From assembly GCA_022709545.1 (NCBI GenBank), contig JAKLIP010000001.1, positions 124,001-188,000 of the forward strand: 64,000 bases of DNA. The letters are read 5' to 3'. The notes beneath the pieces were generated by a model. That model searched no databases and was not told the origin of the DNA. It saw nothing but the letters and a program-made list of their open reading frames with translations. Shown piece after piece: positions 5,189 to 63,787 of this stretch. The first letter of the stretch is position 1; each line of letters opens with the position of its first letter. The translations under genes and the position numbers were made by a program. This DNA is from Patescibacteria group bacterium (lineage in GTDB: Bacteria > Patescibacteriota > Minisyncoccia > Moranbacterales > GWC2-37-73).

Positions 5189-6274
5189 ATGCCTACACTT
5201 ATAGTCGCAGTTTTGTCTGTTTTGCTTTTAGCCGCTTTATTGTGGCTTGTTTTTGATTTGAAAAAAAAGATAGAAAGTAAAAATAGTGACAGGGAAGCTG
5301 CTATTATCCAGGAAAAATTATCAATGCTTTTGGATGAAAATCGCAGGCTTAGGGATAAAATGGATGAAAAACTCTCTGAAACTCATAGAGCTACTCAAGA
5401 GCAAATAAACCATACTATGCAAACTGTACAGGGTATAACAGGACAATCTGCAAAACAGATTGCTGATATGGTTTCCAGTGTTACCAAGCTTGAAGAAACT
5501 AACAAGCAAGTTGTAAATTTTTCAGCTCAACTGCAAAATCTTCAGGATATATTAAGAAACACAAAGCAGCGGGGGATACTGGGAGAATATTTCTTGGAAA
5601 CAACTTTAAAAAATGTTTTGCCTCCGGATAACTATAAAATGCAATATAAATTCAAAGACGGGGAAATAGTGGATGCGGTAGTTTTTGTGGGCAAAAGTAT
5701 TGTACCCATAGACTCAAAGTTTTCTTTAGAAAATTATGAAAAGATAGTAAATGCTGTCAATGAAGTTGAAAGGGAAAAATATGAGAAACTTTTTAAACAA
5801 GACCTCAAAAACAGAATTGATGAAACATCTAAATATATACGTCCTGATGAAGGAACTATGGAATTTGCTTTTATGTTTATACCCAGTGAAACGATATACT
5901 ATGATTTGCTTATGAGATCATCCCAGGTAAATTCTGCCGATCTTATAGAATATGCCTTTAATCAGAAGCATGTAATTATTGTTTCTCCAACAAACTTTTT
6001 AGCTTATTTGCAAACAGTTCTCCAGGGCTTAAGAGCTTTCCAAATTGAGGAAAATGCCAAGGAAATACGTACAAATGTTGAAAAATTAGGAAAGCACATC
6101 ATAGCCTATGAAGAGTATTTCAAAAAAGTAGGTAATAATCTAGGAACAACGGTCAATAGTTACAACGCAGCATATAAAGAGTTGGGTAAAATCGACAAGG
6201 ATGTTTCTAAAATAACTGAGAAAGAAAAAAAAATCGAACCTTTAGTATTGGAAAAACCTCATGAAATTATATAG
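5189..6274 (+). CDS. rmuC: RmuC family protein (DNA recombination)
   Basis: The 361-residue product begins with a membrane helix (residues 3-23), then a long coiled coil (about 25-120). The conserved RmuC domain follows (about 125-320) with characteristic stretches KQRGILGEYFLE, DAVVFVGKSIVPIDSKF and EFAFMFIPSETIYYDLL. RmuC proteins limit inversion or recombination at short inverted repeats and have a nuclease-like fold. Length and order of parts agree with the family. The end overlaps the next gene by 14 bp, suggesting co-translation. Confidence 0.92.
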   Translation: MPTLIVAVLSVLLLAALLWLVFDLKKKIESKNSDREAAIIQEKLSMLLDENRRLRDKMDEKLSETHRATQEQINHTMQTVQGITGQSAKQIADMVSSVTKLEETNKQVVNFSAQLQNLQDILRNTKQRGILGEYFLETTLKNVLPPDNYKMQYKFKDGEIVDAVVFVGKSIVPIDSKFSLENYEKIVNAVNEVEREKYEKLFKQDLKNRIDETSKYIRPDEGTMEFAFMFIPSETIYYDLLMRSSQVNSADLIEYAFNQKHVIIVSPTNFLAYLQTVLQGLRAFQIEENAKEIRTNVEKLGKHIIAYEEYFKKVGNNLGTTVNSYNAAYKELGKIDKDVSKITEKEKKIEPLVLEKPHEII

Positions 6275-6641
6275 CTTAATAATAAAAAAATTTTTTTTAA
6301 ATGAATTTTTTACAAGCGGAATAGTACATTGGGTATTCATAGGTTCGCTTGTTGTTAATCTTGCAAATTGGGGCTTAATTATTTTTTTTATAAGGCCGGT
6401 TGATTTTTTATTAATACTGCACTATAATGTGTATTTTGGAGTAGACATTATTGGGCCATGGTGGCAATTATATTTTCTGCCTCTAATAGGAATAATAATT
6501 CTTAGCATAAATACAATTCTTAGCTATCTTTTTTATCAAAAAAAAGAAAGAATTATTGCCCATTTATTAATGCTGGCAGCTTTTATATCACAGGTAGGAA
6601 TCACCATTGCTTCAGTAAGCATATTAATGATGAATTACTAA
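6261..6641 (+). CDS. Small multi-pass membrane protein of unknown function
   Basis: A 126-residue hydrophobic protein with about three or four membrane helices (around residues 22-45, 68-92 and 97-122). Its ATG lies inside the end of rmuC (14-bp overlap), and the GT2 glycosyltransferase begins 6 bp after its stop. The tight packing suggests a role with the membrane glycosyltransferase or phosphosugar transferase downstream. I do not recognise a family. Confidence 0.6.
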   Translation: MKLYSLIIKKFFLNEFFTSGIVHWVFIGSLVVNLANWGLIIFFIRPVDFLLILHYNVYFGVDIIGPWWQLYFLPLIGIIILSINTILSYLFYQKKERIIAHLLMLAAFISQVGITIASVSILMMNY

Positions 6642-6647
6642 GATCAT

Positions 6648-8336
6648 ATGTCTATTTTTTATTTTCCTGACCCTAAAACAACTGATTTACGTGATCATCG
6701 CATACAAAGAATATTAGAGATTATTCCGGGTTCTTTAACATGGGCCACTCTTATCGGGATGTTTCTGCTTTCATTTATAAAGCCGGTTTGGATGGCTGTT
6801 TTTATAATAATGTTTGATATTTATTGGATACTAAGGACTATTTTTATAACTTATTATTCAATAGCTGCCTATAATAAATTTAAAAATGGTAAAAGCACTG
6901 ATTGGTGGGAAAGATGCCAAAACATTGGTAATGCCGAAGAGTATCTTAAAAGTATTTCAGGAAAAATAAAATTATATAAAGACAGTTTGAGTGAAATTTA
7001 TTCTTTCTTTGAACGACGCAAGGTTAAAAAAGAGATTGAAAGATTAAAAAAATACAAAAAAGAAGTTGAACTAATTAATAAATCCGGAAATGAAATAATA
7101 GATTGGAGAAAAATTATTCATGTAGTGCTTTTTCCCACTGCCAATGAAGGAGCAGAAATAATAGAACCAGCAATTCAGTCTGTTGCAGAAGGAAATTTTC
7201 CTAATCAGCAGATAATCATTTTACTTGCTACGGAGGAAAGGGAAAATGAAAAAGATAGGCTTAAAAAAGTAAATTACCTAAAAGATAAGTTCAAGGGAGT
7301 TTTTCGTGACTTTATAGTCACAACCCATGAAGTTGTCGAAGGTGAAATGAAATGTAAAGCATCTAATGCAACATATGCGGCCAAAAAATTAAAAATCTAT
7401 CTAGATGAGCGGGGCATAGATTATAAGCGTGTTATTTTTTCTAATTTTGACTGTGATAGCGTTAGTCATCCGCAGTATTTTGCTGCTTTGACTTATGAAT
7501 ATATAACTAGTCCAGATCGACTCCAGATGGCTTATCAGCCTTTGCCCATGTATCATAATAATCTGTGGGATACCAATGCTTTTGTTAGAGTGATTGTTAC
7601 TAGTTCTTCTTTTTGGCATATGTTCCAAAGCACACGTTCTGAAATGGTAACATTTGCTTCTCACAGCGAAGCTTTTGATACACTTGTAAAAGTAAACTTC
7701 TGGCCAGTAAACATCATAAATGAGGATTCAATTATTTTCTGGAAATGCTTCTCTTATTTTCATGGAAATTACAGAGTAAAGCCTATTTATTTACCTGTTT
7801 CTTTAGATGCTGTTTTAGCGGAAACTTATTGGAAGACAATAAAAAATCAGTATAAACAAAAAAGGCGATGGGCATATGGAATTGAACACTTTCCTACTTT
7901 GATGCGGGCAATTTGGCCTGACAAAAAAATAAAATTATCGAAAAAAATTAGAGCAGGATTTGAAATGATTGAAGGTCACTGGTCTTGGGCAACTTCAGCT
8001 TTTATTTTAGCAATCCTTGGATGGCTGCCAGTAATAATAGGAGGATCTGAATTTAATCAAAGTGTAATTGCTCATAACCTGCCTTTTATTACTAGGTATC
8101 TTATGACTCTCGCTGCCACTGGTCTGGTTATCTCAATGTTTTTAAGCTTTTCTCTTTTGCCGCCACGTCCTGCAAAATATTCAAAGAAAAGGTATGTGTA
8201 TATGTTTTTACAGTGGTTTTTAGCTCCTATTATTGCACCGACTCTCGGGGCAGTTCCAGCCGTAGAATCTCAGACACGCATGATGATAAAAAAATATTTT
8301 GGTGAATTTTGGGTTACAGAAAAAATTAAAAAGTAA
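6648..8336 (+). CDS. Membrane glycosyltransferase, family 2 (cellulose-synthase-like)
   Basis: A 562-residue protein with two N-terminal membrane helices (about 30-75), a cytoplasmic GT-A domain and C-terminal helices (after about 440). Catalytic landmarks are visible: the strand ending VLFPTANEG, a DxD-type FDCDS near residue 266, an acceptor-site NEDS near 358 and QKRRW near 403, the QxxRW motif of processive GT2 enzymes. It would use a nucleotide sugar to build or extend a surface glycan. It sits between a small membrane protein and a WecA/TagO-type initiator, so a surface-glycan operon is plausible. An insert of about 60 charged residues (100-160) precedes the GT domain. Confidence 0.88.
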   Translation: MSIFYFPDPKTTDLRDHRIQRILEIIPGSLTWATLIGMFLLSFIKPVWMAVFIIMFDIYWILRTIFITYYSIAAYNKFKNGKSTDWWERCQNIGNAEEYLKSISGKIKLYKDSLSEIYSFFERRKVKKEIERLKKYKKEVELINKSGNEIIDWRKIIHVVLFPTANEGAEIIEPAIQSVAEGNFPNQQIIILLATEERENEKDRLKKVNYLKDKFKGVFRDFIVTTHEVVEGEMKCKASNATYAAKKLKIYLDERGIDYKRVIFSNFDCDSVSHPQYFAALTYEYITSPDRLQMAYQPLPMYHNNLWDTNAFVRVIVTSSSFWHMFQSTRSEMVTFASHSEAFDTLVKVNFWPVNIINEDSIIFWKCFSYFHGNYRVKPIYLPVSLDAVLAETYWKTIKNQYKQKRRWAYGIEHFPTLMRAIWPDKKIKLSKKIRAGFEMIEGHWSWATSAFILAILGWLPVIIGGSEFNQSVIAHNLPFITRYLMTLAATGLVISMFLSFSLLPPRPAKYSKKRYVYMFLQWFLAPIIAPTLGAVPAVESQTRMMIKKYFGEFWVTEKIKK

Positions 8337-55967: not shown

Positions 55968-56039
55968 GCCACCATCGTCTAGCGGCTAGGACGCCAGGTT
56001 CTCATCCTGGTAACCGGGGTTCGATTCCCCGTGGTGGTA
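55968..56039 (+). tRNA. tRNA-Glu (CTC)
   Basis: Acceptor GCCACCA/TGGTGGT (closing G-T), anticodon stem CCAGG/CCTGG with loop TTCTCAT (anticodon CTC), T arm CGGGGTTCGATTCCCCG. CCA not encoded. Its 3' end starts a 40-bp repeat. Confidence 0.93.
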
Positions 56040-56076
56040 CGCGATAAAAATAAGGCTTGCTTGAGCCTTATTTTTT
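56037..56076 (+). repeat. 40-bp direct repeat, copy 1 (contains tRNA-Glu terminator)
   Basis: Begins in the last three bases of tRNA-Glu and includes a terminator hairpin (AATAAGGCT/AGCCTTATT). An identical copy lies at 56569-56608, 532 bp downstream. Confidence 0.9.
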
Positions 56077-56180
56077 TATACCTTAGGGGAGTAGTTGGAA
56101 CCAATTTATATTTTTTATAATCTTGCGCGTTTGTTGTTAGGTGTTAGAATAAAGATATAAATATTAAATAATCAAAAAAT

Positions 56181-56441
56181 ATGTCTGAAATGTTTAAACC
56201 GAAGCAATTTGATTCTTTCGAAAAAGTTCCCGACGATCAAAAGAAGAATTTCAAAAAAGAAGAAGACGGCAGTTTTGTTTATAAAGAAGCGGCCAAATCA
56301 TTCTCCGCCGCGAAAGCTGCAACCAAAATAATAAACATATTTGCTAAACAAAAAATTACTCCAGCGGAGGCTCTTCATGTGAGAGCAAATAAAATGAATG
56401 CAGAGAGGGAAAAAGACAAATCTTCCACAAGGCAAGGCTAA
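56181..56441 (+). CDS. Small charged protein of unknown function
   Basis: An 86-residue protein, rich in Lys, Glu and Ala, mostly helical (FDSFEKVPDDQKKNFKKEEDG then AAKSFSAAKAATKIINIFAK). It lies between the two copies of the 40-bp repeat and ends with a terminator hairpin (AAGGCAAGG with CCTTGCCTT, 56429-56452). No family recognised. Perhaps cargo of the repeated segment. Confidence 0.5.
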   Translation: MSEMFKPKQFDSFEKVPDDQKKNFKKEEDGSFVYKEAAKSFSAAKAATKIINIFAKQKITPAEALHVRANKMNAEREKDKSSTRQG

Positions 56442-56452
56442 CCCCTTGCCTT
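56429..56452 (+). terminator. Terminator after small charged protein gene
   Basis: AAGGCAAGG and CCTTGCCTT pair with a short loop, followed by ATTTATTT. Confidence 0.75.
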
Positions 56453-56568
56453 ATTTATTTCTCTAGCCTTTAATAAATCTTCAATAATAAAAGGGTTGAT
56501 ACCTTTCTTAAGTTTATCCCATTTAACCAATTCTCTCATGATTTGGTTCCAACCAGTGAGTGCGAAGT

Positions 56569-56608
56569 GTACGCGATAAAAATAAGGCTTGCTTGAGCCT
56601 TATTTTTT
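56569..56608 (+). repeat. 40-bp direct repeat, copy 2
   Basis: Exact copy of 56037-56076 without the tRNA. The DNA between 56453 and 56568 has no clear gene; a short minus-strand frame there (56438-56539) is probably chance or a remnant. TTGGAACCAA (56095-56104) and TTGGTTCCAA (56543-56552) lie just inside the two copies in opposite orientation. Confidence 0.9.
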
Positions 56609-56770
56609 ATTGCAAAGAAAATGATAATAAAATACTTTCACCACTTGACAAAATTATATTTATCTGCTATACAAGAAGGTTGCAATAATTTTTGCAATAG
56701 CGTTGTTTTACAATTAAATTTTTACAAACAAAATACAACGAATAAAGAGAAAAAGAAAGGAGGGTTTTTT

Positions 56771-57292
56771 ATGTTGATTTTTGTTGCAATTGCGTTGTCA
56801 GGATTATTACTTACCATTGGATCCCACATTTTCGGTGACCATGATATGGATCATGATCATGACGTAAGTCATGATGCCGGCGGAAGTGGCGAATCAACGG
56901 TCAGTATTTTTTCCATGAAGGTGATATCGACATTCATAATGACCTTTGGTGCCGCAGGTGCGGTAGCTCGTTACTATGATTTGTCGTATCCAAATGCATC
57001 TTTTGTCGGCGCAAGCTCAGGAGTTTTTTTTGCTATCGTAATGTGGCTTGTTTATAAAGCAATTTACAAACAGCAAGGCTCATCGGTAGTTAATACTTCT
57101 GACGCGGTAGGATTAACAGCTACGGTTGTTACGCCTATTGATCAAGGCGCCATCGGAGAAGTAGGAATGACCATGAATGGACGTTACTGTACGTTTATGG
57201 CCTGTTCCAATGACGGTAAACCGATAGATAAAGACAAAACAGTTATCGTTGAAAAGGTTGTTGGCGGAAAACTTACAGTGAAAACTGTATAA
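56771..57292 (+). CDS. NfeD-like membrane protein (YuaF type)
   Basis: ATG 56771 follows AAAGGAGGG (the longer frame from 56621 is not supported). The 173-residue product has a leading helix (1-20), a His/Asp-rich segment (GDHDMDHDHDVSHDAGG, about 24-40), two further helices (45-95) and a C-terminal OB-fold-like domain (ATVVTPIDQGAIGEVGMTMNGRY). This is the NfeD pattern. NfeD proteins pair with flotillins, as here with the next gene. Confidence 0.85.
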   Translation: MLIFVAIALSGLLLTIGSHIFGDHDMDHDHDVSHDAGGSGESTVSIFSMKVISTFIMTFGAAGAVARYYDLSYPNASFVGASSGVFFAIVMWLVYKAIYKQQGSSVVNTSDAVGLTATVVTPIDQGAIGEVGMTMNGRYCTFMACSNDGKPIDKDKTVIVEKVVGGKLTVKTV

Positions 57293-57344
57293 TAAGTAGC
57301 ATAAACCCAAATTATAAAATCAAACGAAAGAGAGGAAAGAATTC

Positions 57345-58937
57345 ATGGAAATTTTATCAAGTATTGTAAGTAAGGCGTTTGTTCCGGGCATGATTTTGTT
57401 GGTTGTTGTGGGTATCATACTTGCTCTTAAGTACATCGCAAGCAGATACAAAAAAATTCCGCCAAATGCAGTCGGTGTTTTTTATGGAAGACAATATACA
57501 TATACCGGTCCCGCTCCTGAAAACAAAAAATATTCACTCGGATTTAAGGTAGTATGTGGCGGCGGCAAGGTACAAATCCCATTCGTAGAAAATTACCAGG
57601 AAATGTCGACATCCGCCTTTCAGGTGGAAATAAACGAATCATCTATTCCCAATAAAGATAACGTAAAAGTTGAAGTCAGAGGTGTGGCAACCTGCAAGTT
57701 ATCGACTGAGTTCGAAGACTTGGTCAATGCTGCACAAGCATTTCTGGGAAAATCTGAAGAAGAAATCAACAAATTTATCCAAAACATCCTGAAAGGTCAT
57801 TTGCGGTCAATTATCGGTAAACTGGATATCCAGGAATTACTGAGACGGCGTGACGAATTCAATAAGAAAGTTCTGGAAGAATCCGGCGCCGAATTAAAGC
57901 TTCTTGGCGTGCGCATCATCACTTTGGTTATCCAGGATATCAATGACCAGTACGGATACATTGATTCGCTGGGCAAACAGACAGTGGCCGAAGCTAAACG
58001 TGATGCAGACATTAAAGTTGCTGAGGCGCAAAGAGAATCAACAATTAAAGTCTCTGATGCCGAACGTGATGCGTCGATAGTTACTGCTGAAAATGCAGCC
58101 AAGGTCGCGGAAGCAAATAAGAACCGCGATGTAAAAATTGCCGATATGAAAGTCATTACTGAAACTGCAAATGCCAAAGCAGAGATGGCAAAAAATATTG
58201 AATTGGCTGATCAGTCAAAAGTTCTCAAAGTCAAGGAAGCTGAACGTGATGCGGCAGAAAAAGAAGCCCAGACGCATGTGCAGGAAAAAGAAGTTATAAG
58301 GGTAGGGAAAGAACTCGAAGCCACCGTTGTTATGCCGGCCGAAGCAGCCAAGAAGAAAAAACTTATTGACGCTGATGCAAATAAGCAAGCCACAATTACG
58401 GAAGCGGAAGGCGAGTCCAAAAAAGTTCAAATCAAAGCTGAAGCTGATAAGGTTTCACAAACAATGGAAGGCGAAGGTGAAGCCAATAAGATCAGAGCTA
58501 CTTTGATGGCATCGGCGGAAGGCGAAGCGGCCAAGGTGGAAAAGAAACTTACCGCTGAAGCTACTGGTACCAAGGCCATGGCTGAAGCATTGGCTCAAAT
58601 GAATGATGCCTCGCGTCTGATTATTATCCTCGACCGCTTGCCGGCCCTGGTAGACAAAGGTGGAGAAGCACTGGCCAAAGTCGGAGAATCGATTTTCAAG
58701 AGCGTGGCCTTACCTTTTGGCAGCATCGACAACATCAAAATCGTTGATATGGGCGGAAAAGGTGAAGGTCTTCAGACCATGGGAAGCATAGTTCCTCAGA
58801 CAGTAGCCAATGTTGTCAGAATTTTGAAAACCCAAGGTATTGACCTGGAAGATCTGTTCAAAAAAGCCGGCGTAAACATTGGTGAAGCATTATCAATGGT
58901 TGCCGACAAAAATGCAGGATCTGAAGAAAAAAAGTGA
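57345..58937 (+). CDS. Flotillin-like SPFH domain protein
   Basis: A 530-residue protein with an N-terminal hairpin/membrane segment (about 10-30), SPFH/band-7 domain (about 40-220) and the long Ala/Glu repeat region (220-430) rich in VAEAQRESTIKVSDAERDA-type helices that form the flotillin coiled coil. The C-terminus (440-530) is the oligomerisation part. Flotillins organise membrane microdomains. In an operon with the NfeD-like gene 52 bp upstream, as yuaF-floT in Bacillus. The codon use is richer in G+C than upstream genes. Confidence 0.92.
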   Translation: MEILSSIVSKAFVPGMILLVVVGIILALKYIASRYKKIPPNAVGVFYGRQYTYTGPAPENKKYSLGFKVVCGGGKVQIPFVENYQEMSTSAFQVEINESSIPNKDNVKVEVRGVATCKLSTEFEDLVNAAQAFLGKSEEEINKFIQNILKGHLRSIIGKLDIQELLRRRDEFNKKVLEESGAELKLLGVRIITLVIQDINDQYGYIDSLGKQTVAEAKRDADIKVAEAQRESTIKVSDAERDASIVTAENAAKVAEANKNRDVKIADMKVITETANAKAEMAKNIELADQSKVLKVKEAERDAAEKEAQTHVQEKEVIRVGKELEATVVMPAEAAKKKKLIDADANKQATITEAEGESKKVQIKAEADKVSQTMEGEGEANKIRATLMASAEGEAAKVEKKLTAEATGTKAMAEALAQMNDASRLIIILDRLPALVDKGGEALAKVGESIFKSVALPFGSIDNIKIVDMGGKGEGLQTMGSIVPQTVANVVRILKTQGIDLEDLFKKAGVNIGEALSMVADKNAGSEEKK

Positions 58938-58975
58938 AAAATCATAACGCTCGATAGGGCGTGATGATGAAATTT

Positions 58976-59005
58976 GTGCACGGGGGCGAATCTGTTCCCG
59001 TGCAC
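58976..59005 (+). terminator. Strong hairpin after flotillin gene
   Basis: GTGCACGGG pairs perfectly with CCCGTGCAC (9 bp) around 12 nt. The T tract is weak, so partial termination or mRNA stabilisation is possible. Confidence 0.6.
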
Positions 59006-59032
59006 TTTACTATCAAGAAATAGGAGGGTTAA

Positions 59033-59692
59033 ATGGATAAAAATCAAAAAGGGAAAAGTGGTATCTCATTAGAAAAAAAGCCAATACCTTTCCCCGATAG
59101 GAAAGAAAATAACCGGCAACAGGCAAACAATAAAGCATTAGAAAGCGGAATCAATGGTGATTCAAATTTGTCCGGTAAGGGTAGGAATGAAGAACAAATG
59201 CAGTCAGTGGTCAAGGAATATGACTTAAACATAAGTCATCCGGAAGCAATCGTAATTCATTGTAATGATCCGCGTTTCCAAAACGCCTTTGATCAATTTA
59301 TCCACAATGAATTGGGATTGGCATCAGGACAATATATTCCGGTAGTCATACCTGGTGCGGCCGCTTCATTTTCCGAACGCGAAACTTTCCCCAAAGAGTT
59401 TAAGGTAGTAAGTGATATAATCAGTCTGTTTTTAAGTAAACATGACTCGATTAAGCTTATTGTCCTTATAAACCATGAGGATTGCAAAAAGTACGAGAGC
59501 ATGAAAGATATTATAGGAAATCAATTCCTGCGCGTAGCCGGAAATATGGTAAATCGGCACAAGATTGATTTGGGTAAGGTGGCGAAAACCTTACTCAGTC
59601 TGACCAAAGGCACCGTGAATGTTCGTCTTTTTTATGCTAAATTCGCTAACGCTGAACACACCAAGGCAGTGTTTGAAGAAGTGTCGGCATAG
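59033..59692 (+). CDS. Beta-carbonic-anhydrase-like protein with N-terminal extension
   Basis: A 219-residue protein with a good ribosome site (AGGAGGG). After a hydrophilic extension (1-58), HCNDPRF gives the Cys-x-Asp-x-Arg motif (C77, D79, R81) and NHEDC gives His-x-x-Cys (H148, C151), the three zinc ligands and the Asp/Arg dyad of beta carbonic anhydrases. The middle and C-terminal parts are shorter and diverge. CO2 hydration is possible but unproven; it may be a different metal-binding enzyme. Next to the flotillin gene. Confidence 0.72.
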   Translation: MDKNQKGKSGISLEKKPIPFPDRKENNRQQANNKALESGINGDSNLSGKGRNEEQMQSVVKEYDLNISHPEAIVIHCNDPRFQNAFDQFIHNELGLASGQYIPVVIPGAAASFSERETFPKEFKVVSDIISLFLSKHDSIKLIVLINHEDCKKYESMKDIIGNQFLRVAGNMVNRHKIDLGKVAKTLLSLTKGTVNVRLFYAKFANAEHTKAVFEEVSA

Positions 59693-59723
59693 GGAATTCA
59701 AGTAAACTAAAAATTATTAGGCA

Positions 59724-59751
59724 GGGTCTTGTAGAAAACTACAGGACCCTT
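59724..59751 (+). terminator. Rho-independent terminator
   Basis: AGGGTC.TGTAG pairs with CTACA.GACCCT around an AAAA loop, followed by T tract. Confidence 0.9.
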
Positions 59752-59887
59752 TTTCTTTATTTAGATACGTTATATATGAACAATTTATGGACAATTGACA
59801 AATAAATAATAATTTGATACAGTAAATTGTTCAAAAGTTATTTTACAAGCTAAAAAATAAACCATTTAAAGGAGGCAGGATATAGAT

Positions 59888-61147
59888 ATGTTAAAAGCAT
59901 TAATAAGATTATTGGAGCGGCTGGACAACTGGTGGGAGAATCTTTTTGTTGATGAACCAATCTCAAAAACGATTACAAAAAATCCGATTTCATCATCCAA
60001 ATCAAATGAGCCAATATCAGAATATGGGTTCAAGGATATTCTGGCTAACATTCAGGATCTTGAAGAACTTAGTCGGCAAAACGATAAATGTCCCCAGCAA
60101 TTTAAGTTTCTTATCGGTGTTCGCCTAAAAGAACTTCTTTCAGTTATCAATGATATTGAACAGGTGAAAGAGGCCAACAGCATGAATTTTGATAATTTTC
60201 AGGATATCATTATTGCTCGATATGAAGACCTTTTCCCCCGATTTCTACAAGAAGCCTCTCTGGAAGAGCTGGAAGACGAGTTTGGAAATGGTCTTAATCC
60301 AGGTAGATTTAATGAACTTATTAAAGAATTTTATGGACGACTTTTGAAAGAAGTTTCTTTGGAAGAACTGGAAGATAGATATGAAAATTGTCCTGAAGAA
60401 TTTGACGAAGCCATTACTTCTAGGTATAAGGAACTTTTTCCGCAATTTCTGAAAGAAGCTTCTCTTGAAGAGCTGGAAGAGAAATACGGAAATTGTCTTG
60501 GCCAGGATCAATTCGATGAACTTATCAAGCAGCGCTACGGAGAACTTTTGGATGCTATCACTTCGTTTGAAGAACTTGAAGAACGACGTGGAAATTGTCC
60601 TGATGCTTTCAATGATCTTTTCCAGGGGCCGTATCAGAAATTATTATATACGGTTGAATCAATTGAAGATCTCGAAAGACATTTCAATGACTGTCCGGAA
60701 GAATTCGAAGATTTCTATTTTGATCCATACGACAAATTGTTGAGTAAAATCGAGTCCTTTGAACAGCTGGATAATCTTCATGAAGAATGTGAAGAACATT
60801 TTGTGCCATTGTATGCTCATTATGCTCTCCAGTTGATCAAAAAAGAAACATCACTGAAAAAACTTCAAGATTTATTTGACAATTGTGACGAAACATTCAA
60901 TGGGCTTATCGGAAACCAATACAGTAATGTTTTAAAGACGATTATATCCATTGATGAGTTAAGTGATCGTTTTAATGATTGTCCGGAAGATTTCAAAGGC
61001 ATGGTGCTGGCTCATTGCCGTGAAATAATGCCATCAATCATGAAAAATATTCCTCCTGAAATAATTAAAAAATTCCACAAAGATCTGAATAGCGAATTCA
61101 GAATGATAGCATTAGTCTGCTACAAAAATATAAATGTACAACAGTAA
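59888..61147 (+). CDS. Ten-repeat alpha-helical protein
   Basis: A 419-residue soluble protein after AAAGGAGG. From about residue 50 to 400 it is made of roughly ten units of 32-35 residues with a consensus SLEELExxxxNCPEEF, variable helix, then RYxELLxxx. Each has a hydrophobic SxEEL helix and an NCP turn, so it should be a superhelical repeat like HEAT/TPR solenoids but is not recognised as either. It may be a scaffold for the neighbouring membrane proteins. Terminator follows at 61194. Confidence 0.7.
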   Translation: MLKALIRLLERLDNWWENLFVDEPISKTITKNPISSSKSNEPISEYGFKDILANIQDLEELSRQNDKCPQQFKFLIGVRLKELLSVINDIEQVKEANSMNFDNFQDIIIARYEDLFPRFLQEASLEELEDEFGNGLNPGRFNELIKEFYGRLLKEVSLEELEDRYENCPEEFDEAITSRYKELFPQFLKEASLEELEEKYGNCLGQDQFDELIKQRYGELLDAITSFEELEERRGNCPDAFNDLFQGPYQKLLYTVESIEDLERHFNDCPEEFEDFYFDPYDKLLSKIESFEQLDNLHEECEEHFVPLYAHYALQLIKKETSLKKLQDLFDNCDETFNGLIGNQYSNVLKTIISIDELSDRFNDCPEDFKGMVLAHCREIMPSIMKNIPPEIIKKFHKDLNSEFRMIALVCYKNINVQQ

Positions 61148-61193
61148 TAAGCCGCAAATGTACAAAAGAAAACTTTCTGTAAATCAGAACATG

Positions 61194-61220
61194 AGCCCTA
61201 TTGAGCAATCAATAGGGCTT
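61194..61220 (+). terminator. Rho-independent terminator
   Basis: AGCCCTATTG pairs with CAATAGGGCT (10 bp) around AGCAAT, then TTATC. Confidence 0.9.
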
Positions 61221-61306
61221 TATCTTATTAAAATAATTTATTGCCAAATATGTATTATAATGTATATTTTAGGAGAATATAAAAATAATCATATCTATTA
61301 CAATAT

Positions 61307-61906
61307 ATGCGAAATGGTATTTTCAGATATTCTTTGATTACTTCATGTGTTTTTGCAGGATTTTTAGTGTCTGATGTTTCATTCGCTGAGGAAAATTTTA
61401 TTGAAGGCGTCAAAACAGTGACGACATTAAATCAGGCCGAGAAATATTTTCAGGAGGTTATTATTGGAGAAAAAACAGTAAAAAATGAAACAGTAAATAT
61501 GTATTCTGTTCCTTATATAACATATGGCAATAATCCAAAGAAGTATAATATTATACATAAAAGTGATGATAAGATACTGTTTAATAAAAAACCGGATAGA
61601 ATCATAGAATTAAGAGAGGCTATTGAAAAAGAAAATTCTGCAAGAAAATTATCCCAAAATGCCAATCATCAATCAATAAATTCTGCTCCCAAAAATAATA
61701 GGTCAGATTATATTAAAAAAGGTACCCATTGTCCCGCTGAAAAAGACAAGCCGGGATGGAGCTCAAGAAAAAATAAGAATCACATGGACGAAGACTGCTG
61801 TGCTGATTATGATGAATGGCCAAAACCAGGGTGTGCTTATACTTCAGCAGATTTTAAAATTATGCTTGATGGGCCGACTAAGGGACACATAAAAAATAAG
61901 CACTAA
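61307..61906 (+). CDS. Secreted cysteine-containing protein of unknown function
   Basis: A 199-residue protein with a signal peptide (RNGIFRYSLITSCVFAGFLVSDVSFAEE, cleavage near SFA). The middle is basic and hydrophilic. The C-terminal 60 residues hold cysteines in HCPAEKDKPGW, DEDCCADYDEWPKPGC (about 145-185), suggesting disulfide bonds. An AGGAGA at 61271 is 30 nt away, so initiation is weak or uncertain. Confidence 0.55.
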   Translation: MRNGIFRYSLITSCVFAGFLVSDVSFAEENFIEGVKTVTTLNQAEKYFQEVIIGEKTVKNETVNMYSVPYITYGNNPKKYNIIHKSDDKILFNKKPDRIIELREAIEKENSARKLSQNANHQSINSAPKNNRSDYIKKGTHCPAEKDKPGWSSRKNKNHMDEDCCADYDEWPKPGCAYTSADFKIMLDGPTKGHIKNKH

Positions 61907-61955
61907 ATTTTTTATTTGACTATATAAAGAAAATTATAATAATACTAGTCGGTGG

Positions 61956-61983
61956 TTGACTTTTTTTGTGTTTTATGTATAAT
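61956..61983 (+). promoter_or_regulatory. Promoter for the gene at 62035
   Basis: TTGACT (61956-61961), 16-bp spacer, TATAAT (61978-61983). Confidence 0.8.
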
Positions 61984-62034
61984 CAGAAGATTGGGTTAAA
62001 AACCTAAATATACAAGATATAAAGGAGGTGTACT

Positions 62035-62592
62035 TTGAAAGGAGATAATAAAAAAGGAATAATAGCTAAGGCTTTAGAAGGAAATTTTCTCTTAGAAGTT
62101 TTTAAAATACTTAAAAGTGGAGATTTCGTAGATGTTAAATTTCATCCAGAAGAGGGGGATGTCCAGCTTGGAATATTAAGTGATTATGAAAAGGCTTTAT
62201 TAACTTACATGACAAAAATTTCAGATGAAGCGGAGAAAATTTTAAAATCTCTTGAAAATTATCAAGGAGATTCATGGAGGTTAAAAGCAAGGATAAAAGA
62301 AATAGAAACAAAGATGGAGACGGTTATTTTGGTAAAGTCAATTCTCTGGAATTCATTCAGGACAAGAACCGGATTCTGGGAAAAAGGGACTAAAATTATT
62401 CTCAGAAGTGGTTTCAGAATTTTCAAGATGGCAGAAAATGGGGGCGCAGAATGCGATTGTGCTAAATGCCAGATAGAGAAAGCCTTGTCGGGTGGATCAT
62501 TTGCAATTATTGAAATAGTTGGGTCGGAAGGAGAAAGGTCTGAGGAAATGGCTCACATTTCATCAGAAACGCCCAGTAAATACAAGCATTAA
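62035..62592 (+). CDS. Conserved-looking protein of unknown function, TTG start
   Basis: A 185-residue protein beginning at TTG 62035 behind AAAGGAGGTG, which fixes the start. The N-terminal 50 residues (IIAKALEGNFLLEVFKILKSGDFVDVKF) resemble a small alpha/beta unit, a helical part follows (65-125), and CDCAKCQIEKALSGG (about 148-162) has a CxCxxC that could bind metal. No family recognised. It has its own promoter. Confidence 0.6.
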   Translation: MKGDNKKGIIAKALEGNFLLEVFKILKSGDFVDVKFHPEEGDVQLGILSDYEKALLTYMTKISDEAEKILKSLENYQGDSWRLKARIKEIETKMETVILVKSILWNSFRTRTGFWEKGTKIILRSGFRIFKMAENGGAECDCAKCQIEKALSGGSFAIIEIVGSEGERSEEMAHISSETPSKYKH

Positions 62593-62616
62593 AAAATGCA
62601 TTATACCATGAAAAAG

Positions 62617-62654
62617 AGCAGGGTTATCTGAATAGATTTAATTCCTGCTTTTTT
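62617..62654 (+). terminator. Terminator-like hairpin
   Basis: AGCAGG pairs with CCTGCT across a long loop, then TTTTTTA. Confidence 0.5.
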
Positions 62655-62716
62655 ATTTATTATTGACTTGCTTTTCGATAATTGGGATAATAGGAAAGTG
62701 AAAATAAAAAAGTTTT

Positions 62717-63787
62717 ATGAACTTTAAAGAAACTTTAATAAAACTGAAAAAAGAAATAGACGATGAATTAAAACTTCAATTTAATGGTCTTATTAAAAAT
62801 GTGCGGAAAGAGGATGTGCTTATCGCTGAAGCCCTAGAACAAATTAAAAAAATAACTTTAGCCGGAGGAAAGAGAATCCGCGGAGCGCTTTTGTGCCAGG
62901 CTTATTTTGGGGCAGGCGGTAAAAATAAGAAAAGAATAATAAAAACTGCTGCAGCTGCAGAATTATTGCACATGTTTTTTCTTGTCCATGACGATATCAT
63001 GGATAAGGGACTATTGCGGCACGGAGAAAAAACTTTGCAAACTTTCTTTGCTGGCAAAAAGCAAAAAAATATGCCCGCAGAAGAAGCACAGCATTTTGGA
63101 AATTCAATCGCCATTATTGCCGGTGACATGCTTTATGCAATGGCCAACAAAATAATTTTAGAAGCTGGATTTGACATTAAGACAACATTACAATCTTTGA
63201 TAAAAATGCAGAAAATAGTAGAAACTACAATAGTTGGGCAATCACAGGATGTTAAAATTGCACAGGGGAAAAAAGCTACCGAAAAAGAAGTTTTAGCTAT
63301 GTATGCCAATAAAACAGCTCGCTATACTTTTGAAAATCCCTTATGTATGGGTGTAATATTAGCTGGCAAAAATAATAAGAAATTAATGCAGTGTTTGAGT
63401 CGATATGCCATTAATGTAGGAATTGCTTTTCAGATTCAGGATGACATTCTGGGAGTTTTTGGAAATAAGAAAAAAACAGGTAAATTATCCGTATCAGATA
63501 TAGAAGAAGGAAAAAAATCTATCATGGTTATCAGGGCTTATAAGTGGTTAAATATCAGGCAAAAAAAGCAGTTGGACTTTATTTTAGGCAAAAAGGGTAT
63601 AACCAGTAAAGAAGTTATGGTTTTTCAGGACATCTTGAAAAATACAGGGGCGCTTGAATATGCTCAAGAAATGTCAGCAGGCTATTTGGCAAAAGGAAAA
63701 AGGGAAATAAAAAAGATGGCTTTTTTTCCTGAAGCTAAAAATTTTCTGACAGGATTAGTGGAATATTTAGAAAATAGGGAAGCTTAA
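62717..63787 (+). CDS. Polyprenyl synthetase (geranylgeranyl or farnesyl diphosphate synthase family)
   Basis: A 356-residue isoprenyl synthase. GGKRIRGALL, LLHMFFLVHDDIMDKGLLRHGEKT (first DDxxD at DDIMD near residue 95) and the second motif FQIQDDILG, where the last Asp is Gly. It makes a prenyl diphosphate primer for the next enzyme. Starts a plus-strand pair with uppS. Confidence 0.92.
   Translation: MNFKETLIKLKKEIDDELKLQFNGLIKNVRKEDVLIAEALEQIKKITLAGGKRIRGALLCQAYFGAGGKNKKRIIKTAAAAELLHMFFLVHDDIMDKGLLRHGEKTLQTFFAGKKQKNMPAEEAQHFGNSIAIIAGDMLYAMANKIILEAGFDIKTTLQSLIKMQKIVETTIVGQSQDVKIAQGKKATEKEVLAMYANKTARYTFENPLCMGVILAGKNNKKLMQCLSRYAINVGIAFQIQDDILGVFGNKKKTGKLSVSDIEEGKKSIMVIRAYKWLNIRQKKQLDFILGKKGITSKEVMVFQDILKNTGALEYAQEMSAGYLAKGKREIKKMAFFPEAKNFLTGLVEYLENREA

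Follow-up and report, generated by a model that had tools for sequence, protein, structure and literature searches.

Bacterial flotillins are thought to organize enzymes in membrane microdomains, yet specific partner enzymes that are genetically linked to them are rare. The locus described here raises the question of whether a flotillin gene in a patescibacterium with a 1.02 Mb genome is linked to such a partner, a beta-carbonic-anhydrase-like (CA) protein. It lies in a window of 64,000 nucleotides (the whole stretch of DNA that was analyzed), in which the initial annotation had picked out four reading frames as a cassette of probable foreign origin. All four are present as proposed, with strong Shine-Dalgarno-like sequences just 5′ of their starts (AAAGGAGGG, AGAGAGGAAAG, AATAGGAGGG, AAAGGAGGC). 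On sequence evidence, bases 56771–59692, covering the first three, are a horizontally acquired NfeD-flotillin-CA cassette. The features of the locus are as follows.

55968..56040, + strand: tRNA-Glu(CTC), upstream edge of a variable site
56037-56076: first copy of a 40-nt tRNA-Glu/terminator repeat
56569..56608, + strand: upstream terminator hairpin, which is the second copy of the 40-nt repeat
56771..57292, + strand: NfeD2-like protein gene (173 aa)
57345..58937, + strand: flotillin gene, SPFH2 type (530 aa)
58976..59005, + strand: 13-bp hairpin between the flotillin and CA genes, followed by a weak T tail (97-nt gap, z-score -6.4)
59033..59692, + strand: beta-carbonic-anhydrase-like gene, divergent Pro_CA_2 (219 aa)
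59723..59750, + strand: strong intrinsic terminator downstream of the CA gene, at the end of the cassette (12-bp stem, T-rich tail; z-score -4.8)
59888..61147, + strand: helical-repeat protein gene (419 aa), outside the cassette

The hairpin between the flotillin and CA genes is possibly an attenuator or an mRNA-stabilizing structure.

The suggested NfeD-flotillin pair is supported by matches to PF01957 and PF01145 in adjacent genes. The flotillin at 57345-58937, the sole flotillin match in the host genome at E<=0.001, combines an SPFH/Band_7 domain (PF01145, E 1.1e-24) with FloT-like full length (NF058507, E 1.5e-71, residues 17-507), an N-terminal hydrophobic anchor and a coiled Ala/Glu-rich region. 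Its score against the FloT model (241.9 bits) is under the equivalog cut-off of 700 bits, so it is not FloT itself. It is 58-61% identical to the flotillins of loci L045, L046 and L047, and a single-protein scan of the genome-contig collection with the window flotillin returned no match. Directly upstream lies the NfeD protein, with three hydrophobic segments by hydropathy (residues 2-20, 44-62 and 76-94) and a C-terminal OB-type NfeD domain. The window protein matches PF01957 weakly (residues 112-171, E 0.0013, below cut-off). Among family members from cassettes 8 of 10 match it, the best at 4e-6, and the NfeD profile (A3) also retrieves proteins annotated as NfeD in Thermomicrobium, Priestia and Enterococcus. 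So weak a single-protein match is expected, because the NfeD2 partners of flotillins are described as having very weak similarity to other NfeD proteins (PMC2636767). A PDB sequence search with the NfeD protein gave chance matches only. Between its first two hydrophobic segments runs a His/Asp-rich loop, GDHDMDHDHDVSHD (56837-56880, residues 23-37), in which 11 of 20 residues are His or Asp, compared with 2-4 in three plasmid NfeD proteins. Binding or buffering of a divalent metal is a possible role for this loop. Among patescibacterial homologues up to 15 of 20 loop residues are His or Asp, and the feature is weak in genome G114. Because the loop is also carried by G104, a genome with NfeD and flotillin but without the CA, we rejected it as a CA-specific feature.

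The product of the third gene, proposed earlier to be a beta-CA-like metal enzyme, lived up to that description. Beta-CAs hold zinc with Cys, His and Cys ligands and carry an Asp-Arg dyad (CxDxR, HxxC). The window protein has C77-x-D79-x-R81 and H148-x-x-C151, and in an alignment all five residues are invariant in 11/11 flotillin-linked cassette members, even in those that are no more than 20-30% identical to the window CA. PF20393 (Pro_CA_2) matches the window protein at E 1.6e-5, its 25.5 bits falling short of the gathering score of 30 bits, and is matched by 10 of the 11 cassette CAs at E<=0.01 (best 5.9e-8). AlphaFold models a domain with confidence starting at about residue 70; the first 50-60 residues, a longer stretch than in the other copies, are predicted to be disordered. 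The best 45 PDB matches of this model in Foldseek are all beta-CAs (prob 0.97-1.00, 9-18% identity), which points to a beta-CA fold despite low TM-scores of 0.31-0.47 that refer to the whole query including about 60 disordered residues. The protein is soluble, without a membrane segment, and differs from the usual HxDCG motif in that the Gly after the second Cys ligand is replaced (HEDCK). Searching PDB sequences with it gave chance matches only. From its catalytic residues and modelled fold, we take it to be a beta-class carbonic-anhydrase-like zinc enzyme of putative activity.

The fourth gene, presented originally as a new solenoid belonging to the cassette, does not form part of it. It encodes about ten helical repeats of 32-35 aa (SLEELExxxxNCPEEFxxLIxxRYxxLL); NCPEEF is the conserved core of the repeats, and the protein has 10 cysteines. 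The strong terminator at 59723..59750 sets it apart from the CA gene; its codon usage is host-like, and it has no match in the 10 other cassette genomes. Nor were convincing relatives found in 96 related genomes, which yielded two weak partial matches, and a PDB sequence search returned chance matches only. The AlphaFold model has a mean pLDDT of 41, so we claim no fold for this protein. A promoter-like site lies at 59795, after the CA terminator, in a region where such sites are no more frequent than expected by chance.

Composition places the boundary at the same point. The 1-kb G+C profile peaks at 0.454 in the flotillin gene, compared with about 0.34-0.36 around it. Relative to the expectation from amino-acid content, G+C is 0.436 vs 0.386 for the flotillin, 0.395 vs 0.353 for the CA and 0.418 vs 0.400 for NfeD. 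An Ala-rich composition accounts for only part of the flotillin value (expected 0.386 vs a host mean gene of 0.345). The codon log-likelihoods of all three genes are each below those of all 69 host background genes, and GC3 is 0.32 for NfeD, 0.39 for the flotillin and 0.38 for the CA, against a background mean of 0.247 (sd 0.035). Codon usage of the repeat protein is ordinary, at the 40th percentile of the host background. Thus, the compositional anomaly first ascribed to four genes holds for three of them and ends at the third.

In eight same-family genomes the murF - tRNA-Glu - prenyl synthase site was found without the cassette, the distance from murF to the synthase being about 0.5-3.6 kb. 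From the tRNA to the synthase the closest relative, G005, has about 0.4 kb, and the window 6.7 kb. The cassette was therefore gained in the host lineage. In 18 other genomes of the family no flotillin of the cassette type was found, the matches being weak (E 1e-5 to 1e-8, frames about 240-270 aa). In the flotillin tree, which the initial annotation had called for, and in the CA tree as well, the window groups with L045, L046 and L047 rather than with G019 of its own order; L047 is a 5.5-kb contig of 57% G+C from a Bacteroidota-labelled bin, of uncertain source and one candidate for the donor lineage. Codon usage and the empty site together support the suspected foreign origin, and the cassette was probably acquired from outside, although atypical codons can also stem from unusual expression. 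GC3 of the cassette is also raised in G019 and G379, while the cassettes of L045, L046 and G206 resemble their own flanks, a pattern that fits repeated transfer of different age. Mis-binning of contig C1 is unlikely despite a 9.6% contamination estimate, because the contig is 378 kb long and its flanks match the synteny of the family (murF, tRNA-Glu, prenyl synthase, UppS-like).

The vehicle of transfer does not appear to be a tRNA-targeted element. The tRNA-associated repeat reported ahead of the cassette is real: two identical 40-nt copies, 56037-56076 and 56569-56608, contain four bases from the end of tRNA-Glu together with the hairpin of its terminator and occur nowhere else in the genome. 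They do not flank the cassette, however. Both end before it and enclose only an 86-aa ORF (56037-56608), which rules them out as its attachment sites. No integrase was recognized in 56-63 kb. The eight same-family genomes that were examined each have a tRNA-Glu between murF and the prenyl synthase. Viral contigs and plasmids yielded no relative of the CA, so there is no support for a phage or plasmid as the vehicle. The interval from tRNA-Glu to the prenyl synthase (window 56040-62717) is a variable site whose contents differ among the eight relatives. Here, besides the 86-aa ORF and the repeat protein, it includes a 199-aa protein that is putatively secreted and a 185-aa ORF without known families; these four are extra in the gap but have host-like codons.

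The first CA searches used two CA sequences only and no flotillin information. They turned up eight loci in the genome-contig collection and, within the class, another eight genomes. Nine of these have NfeD-flotillin-CA in the same order and orientation (L045, L046, L047, L051, G131, G206, G379, G114 and G395), and flotillin-CA was found at a contig end in G019, a member of the host's order first found in searches of relatives. The co-occurrence that the neighbourhood check had looked for is therefore borne out for three of the four families. The flotillin-CA gap ranges from -8 to 110 nt across cassettes, the genes overlapping in L051. In a class-wide sample, 7/384 genomes have a true flotillin, and in six of these seven, the window's genome included, the CA lies directly downstream of it; the exception is G104. 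The hypergeometric P for this co-occurrence across the 384 genomes is 4.6e-11, a value to be read loosely because of the relatedness of the genomes and because cassette members went into the flotillin profile used in the search. Pairwise identities of CA and flotillin correlate (Spearman 0.54, Pearson 0.83), and gene order and tight spacing hold at 30-40% protein identity, also where the cassette looks native. That the unit recurs in about ten further bacteria, most of them related, suggests that the CA works at the membrane on an NfeD-flotillin scaffold. Neither CA nor flotillin strictly needs the other, given G104 and the few CAs of the flotillin-type clade that have no flotillin nearby (L049, L050/L067 and L068). 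NfeD-flotillin pairs without a CA also occur in Thermomicrobium, Priestia and Enterococcus plasmids. Two of the unlinked CAs, L050 2231-2740 and L067 6931-7371, come from two different genomes and are each flanked by a ComEC-like gene and a putative glycosyltransferase.

The reading we favor, with moderate confidence, is that of a horizontally acquired operon whose beta-CA-like enzyme would be tethered to an NfeD-flotillin microdomain and hydrate CO2 at the membrane. Flotillins oligomerize at membranes and work with NfeD (PMC11222466, PMC2636767). The cassette flotillin would likewise oligomerize with NfeD at the cytoplasmic membrane, and the soluble CA-like protein would dock on this platform. 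CO2 hydration (CO2 + H2O to HCO3- + H+) would thereby be concentrated at the membrane face, where it might serve local pH or bicarbonate supply, or client proteins in the microdomain.

COS and CS2 hydrolases of the beta-CA fold are known, and it is conceivable, if on the unlikely side, that the protein hydrolyzes another small molecule or is a zinc-binding adaptor of the flotillin complex. An identity of 9-18% to characterized beta-CAs, a score below the standard Pro_CA_2 cut-off and the replaced Gly would suit such a role, but zinc ligands and Asp-Arg dyad have stayed invariant down to 20-30% identity. The patchy distribution, the marks of transfer and the orphan CAs could instead mean that the genes travel together and act separately, the CA supplying bicarbonate alone in the cytosol. 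We find this quite improbable, as CA and flotillin distances correlate and order and tight spacing, to the point of overlap in L051, are kept at 30-40% identity, also where the cassette looks native. Slightly less probable again is that flotillin and NfeD act as a generic chaperone system for membrane proteins that are unfolded, of the kind described in Staphylococcus aureus (PMC11222466), with the CA as mere operon passenger or client. The CA-less pairs of G104, Thermomicrobium, Priestia and the Enterococcus plasmids would fit such a system, but the CA accompanies 6/7 true flotillins of the class sample.

Of the systems already described, the NfeD2-SPFH2 operon (YuaF-YuaG/FloT type; PMC2636767) is alike in having an NfeD-like gene of weak NfeD similarity directly upstream of an SPFH2-type flotillin. 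The cassette differs in adding a third conserved gene, the beta-CA-like one, and in its His/Asp-rich NfeD loop, which is absent from the three plasmid NfeD proteins compared. The FloA-NfeD functional membrane microdomain of S. aureus shares the flotillin scaffold with an NfeD partner, whereas the part of PMC11222466 used here describes no carbonic-anhydrase partner and gives its role as stabilizing unfolded proteins. The flotillin-associated rhodopsin cluster (PMC10308929) likewise joins a flotillin to a specific partner gene in streamlined genomes, although that partner is a seven-helix rhodopsin rather than a soluble zinc-enzyme fold. The rhodopsin is one published case of a flotillin-linked partner. 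A literature search on flotillin with carbonic anhydrase and NfeD, and on flotillin in CPR bacteria, found no title or abstract describing a flotillin-CA operon; it covered open-licence papers only and is thus not proof of novelty. With Pro_CA_2 (PF20393, putative carbonic anhydrase) the cassette CAs share a weak family match and the same CxDxR/HxxC residues. The usual patescibacterial members, however, are about 150 aa long and often next to ATP-synthase genes, whereas the cassette CAs belong to a separate clade and lie behind flotillin.

In a tree of 51 CA-like proteins, the flotillin-linked group, together with five unlinked rows, is split from the rest at 98/100. Within the sister group, 13/13 loci from the host's order adjoin atpC/atpD, and so does a second copy in the host genome itself (G000:C10, about 157.2-157.6 kb; L016 / L118). 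The host therefore carries both an ATP-synthase-linked and a flotillin-linked CA. Across a phylum-wide sample, 14/29 CA loci of this group have F- or V/A-type ATP-synthase genes no more than about 1.5 kb away. ATP-synthase-adjacent Pro_CA_2 loci (L016 / L118, L004-L015, L017, L098-L100, L102-L105, L110-L114, L119 and L121) are placed next to F-type atpD-atpC, close to atpB/E/F or behind the genes for subunits B and D of V/A-type ATPases. In L051 a flotillin-linked and an atp-type CA are convergent neighbors (5962-6414 and 6493-6915), with atpC about 1.5 kb on, so that the two contexts meet in a single locus. No title or abstract among open-licence papers described a linkage of carbonic anhydrase and ATP synthase in Patescibacteria, and a CA-like enzyme tied to ATP synthase operons deserves separate study.

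The conserved, mobile flotillin-CA operon offers a defined two- or three-protein system for testing how cargo is recruited to a bacterial raft, and it points to CO2/bicarbonate chemistry as an unexplored part of patescibacterial physiology. A broader proposal, which we regard as speculative and rather unlikely as it stands, is that some Patescibacteria put beta-CA-family enzymes at the membrane in two ways, beside ATP synthase and on a transferable NfeD-flotillin scaffold. If true, surface-coupled CO2/bicarbonate chemistry would help proton or pH balance in minimal, probably host-attached cells, and bacterial flotillin microdomains would have a defined enzymatic cargo.
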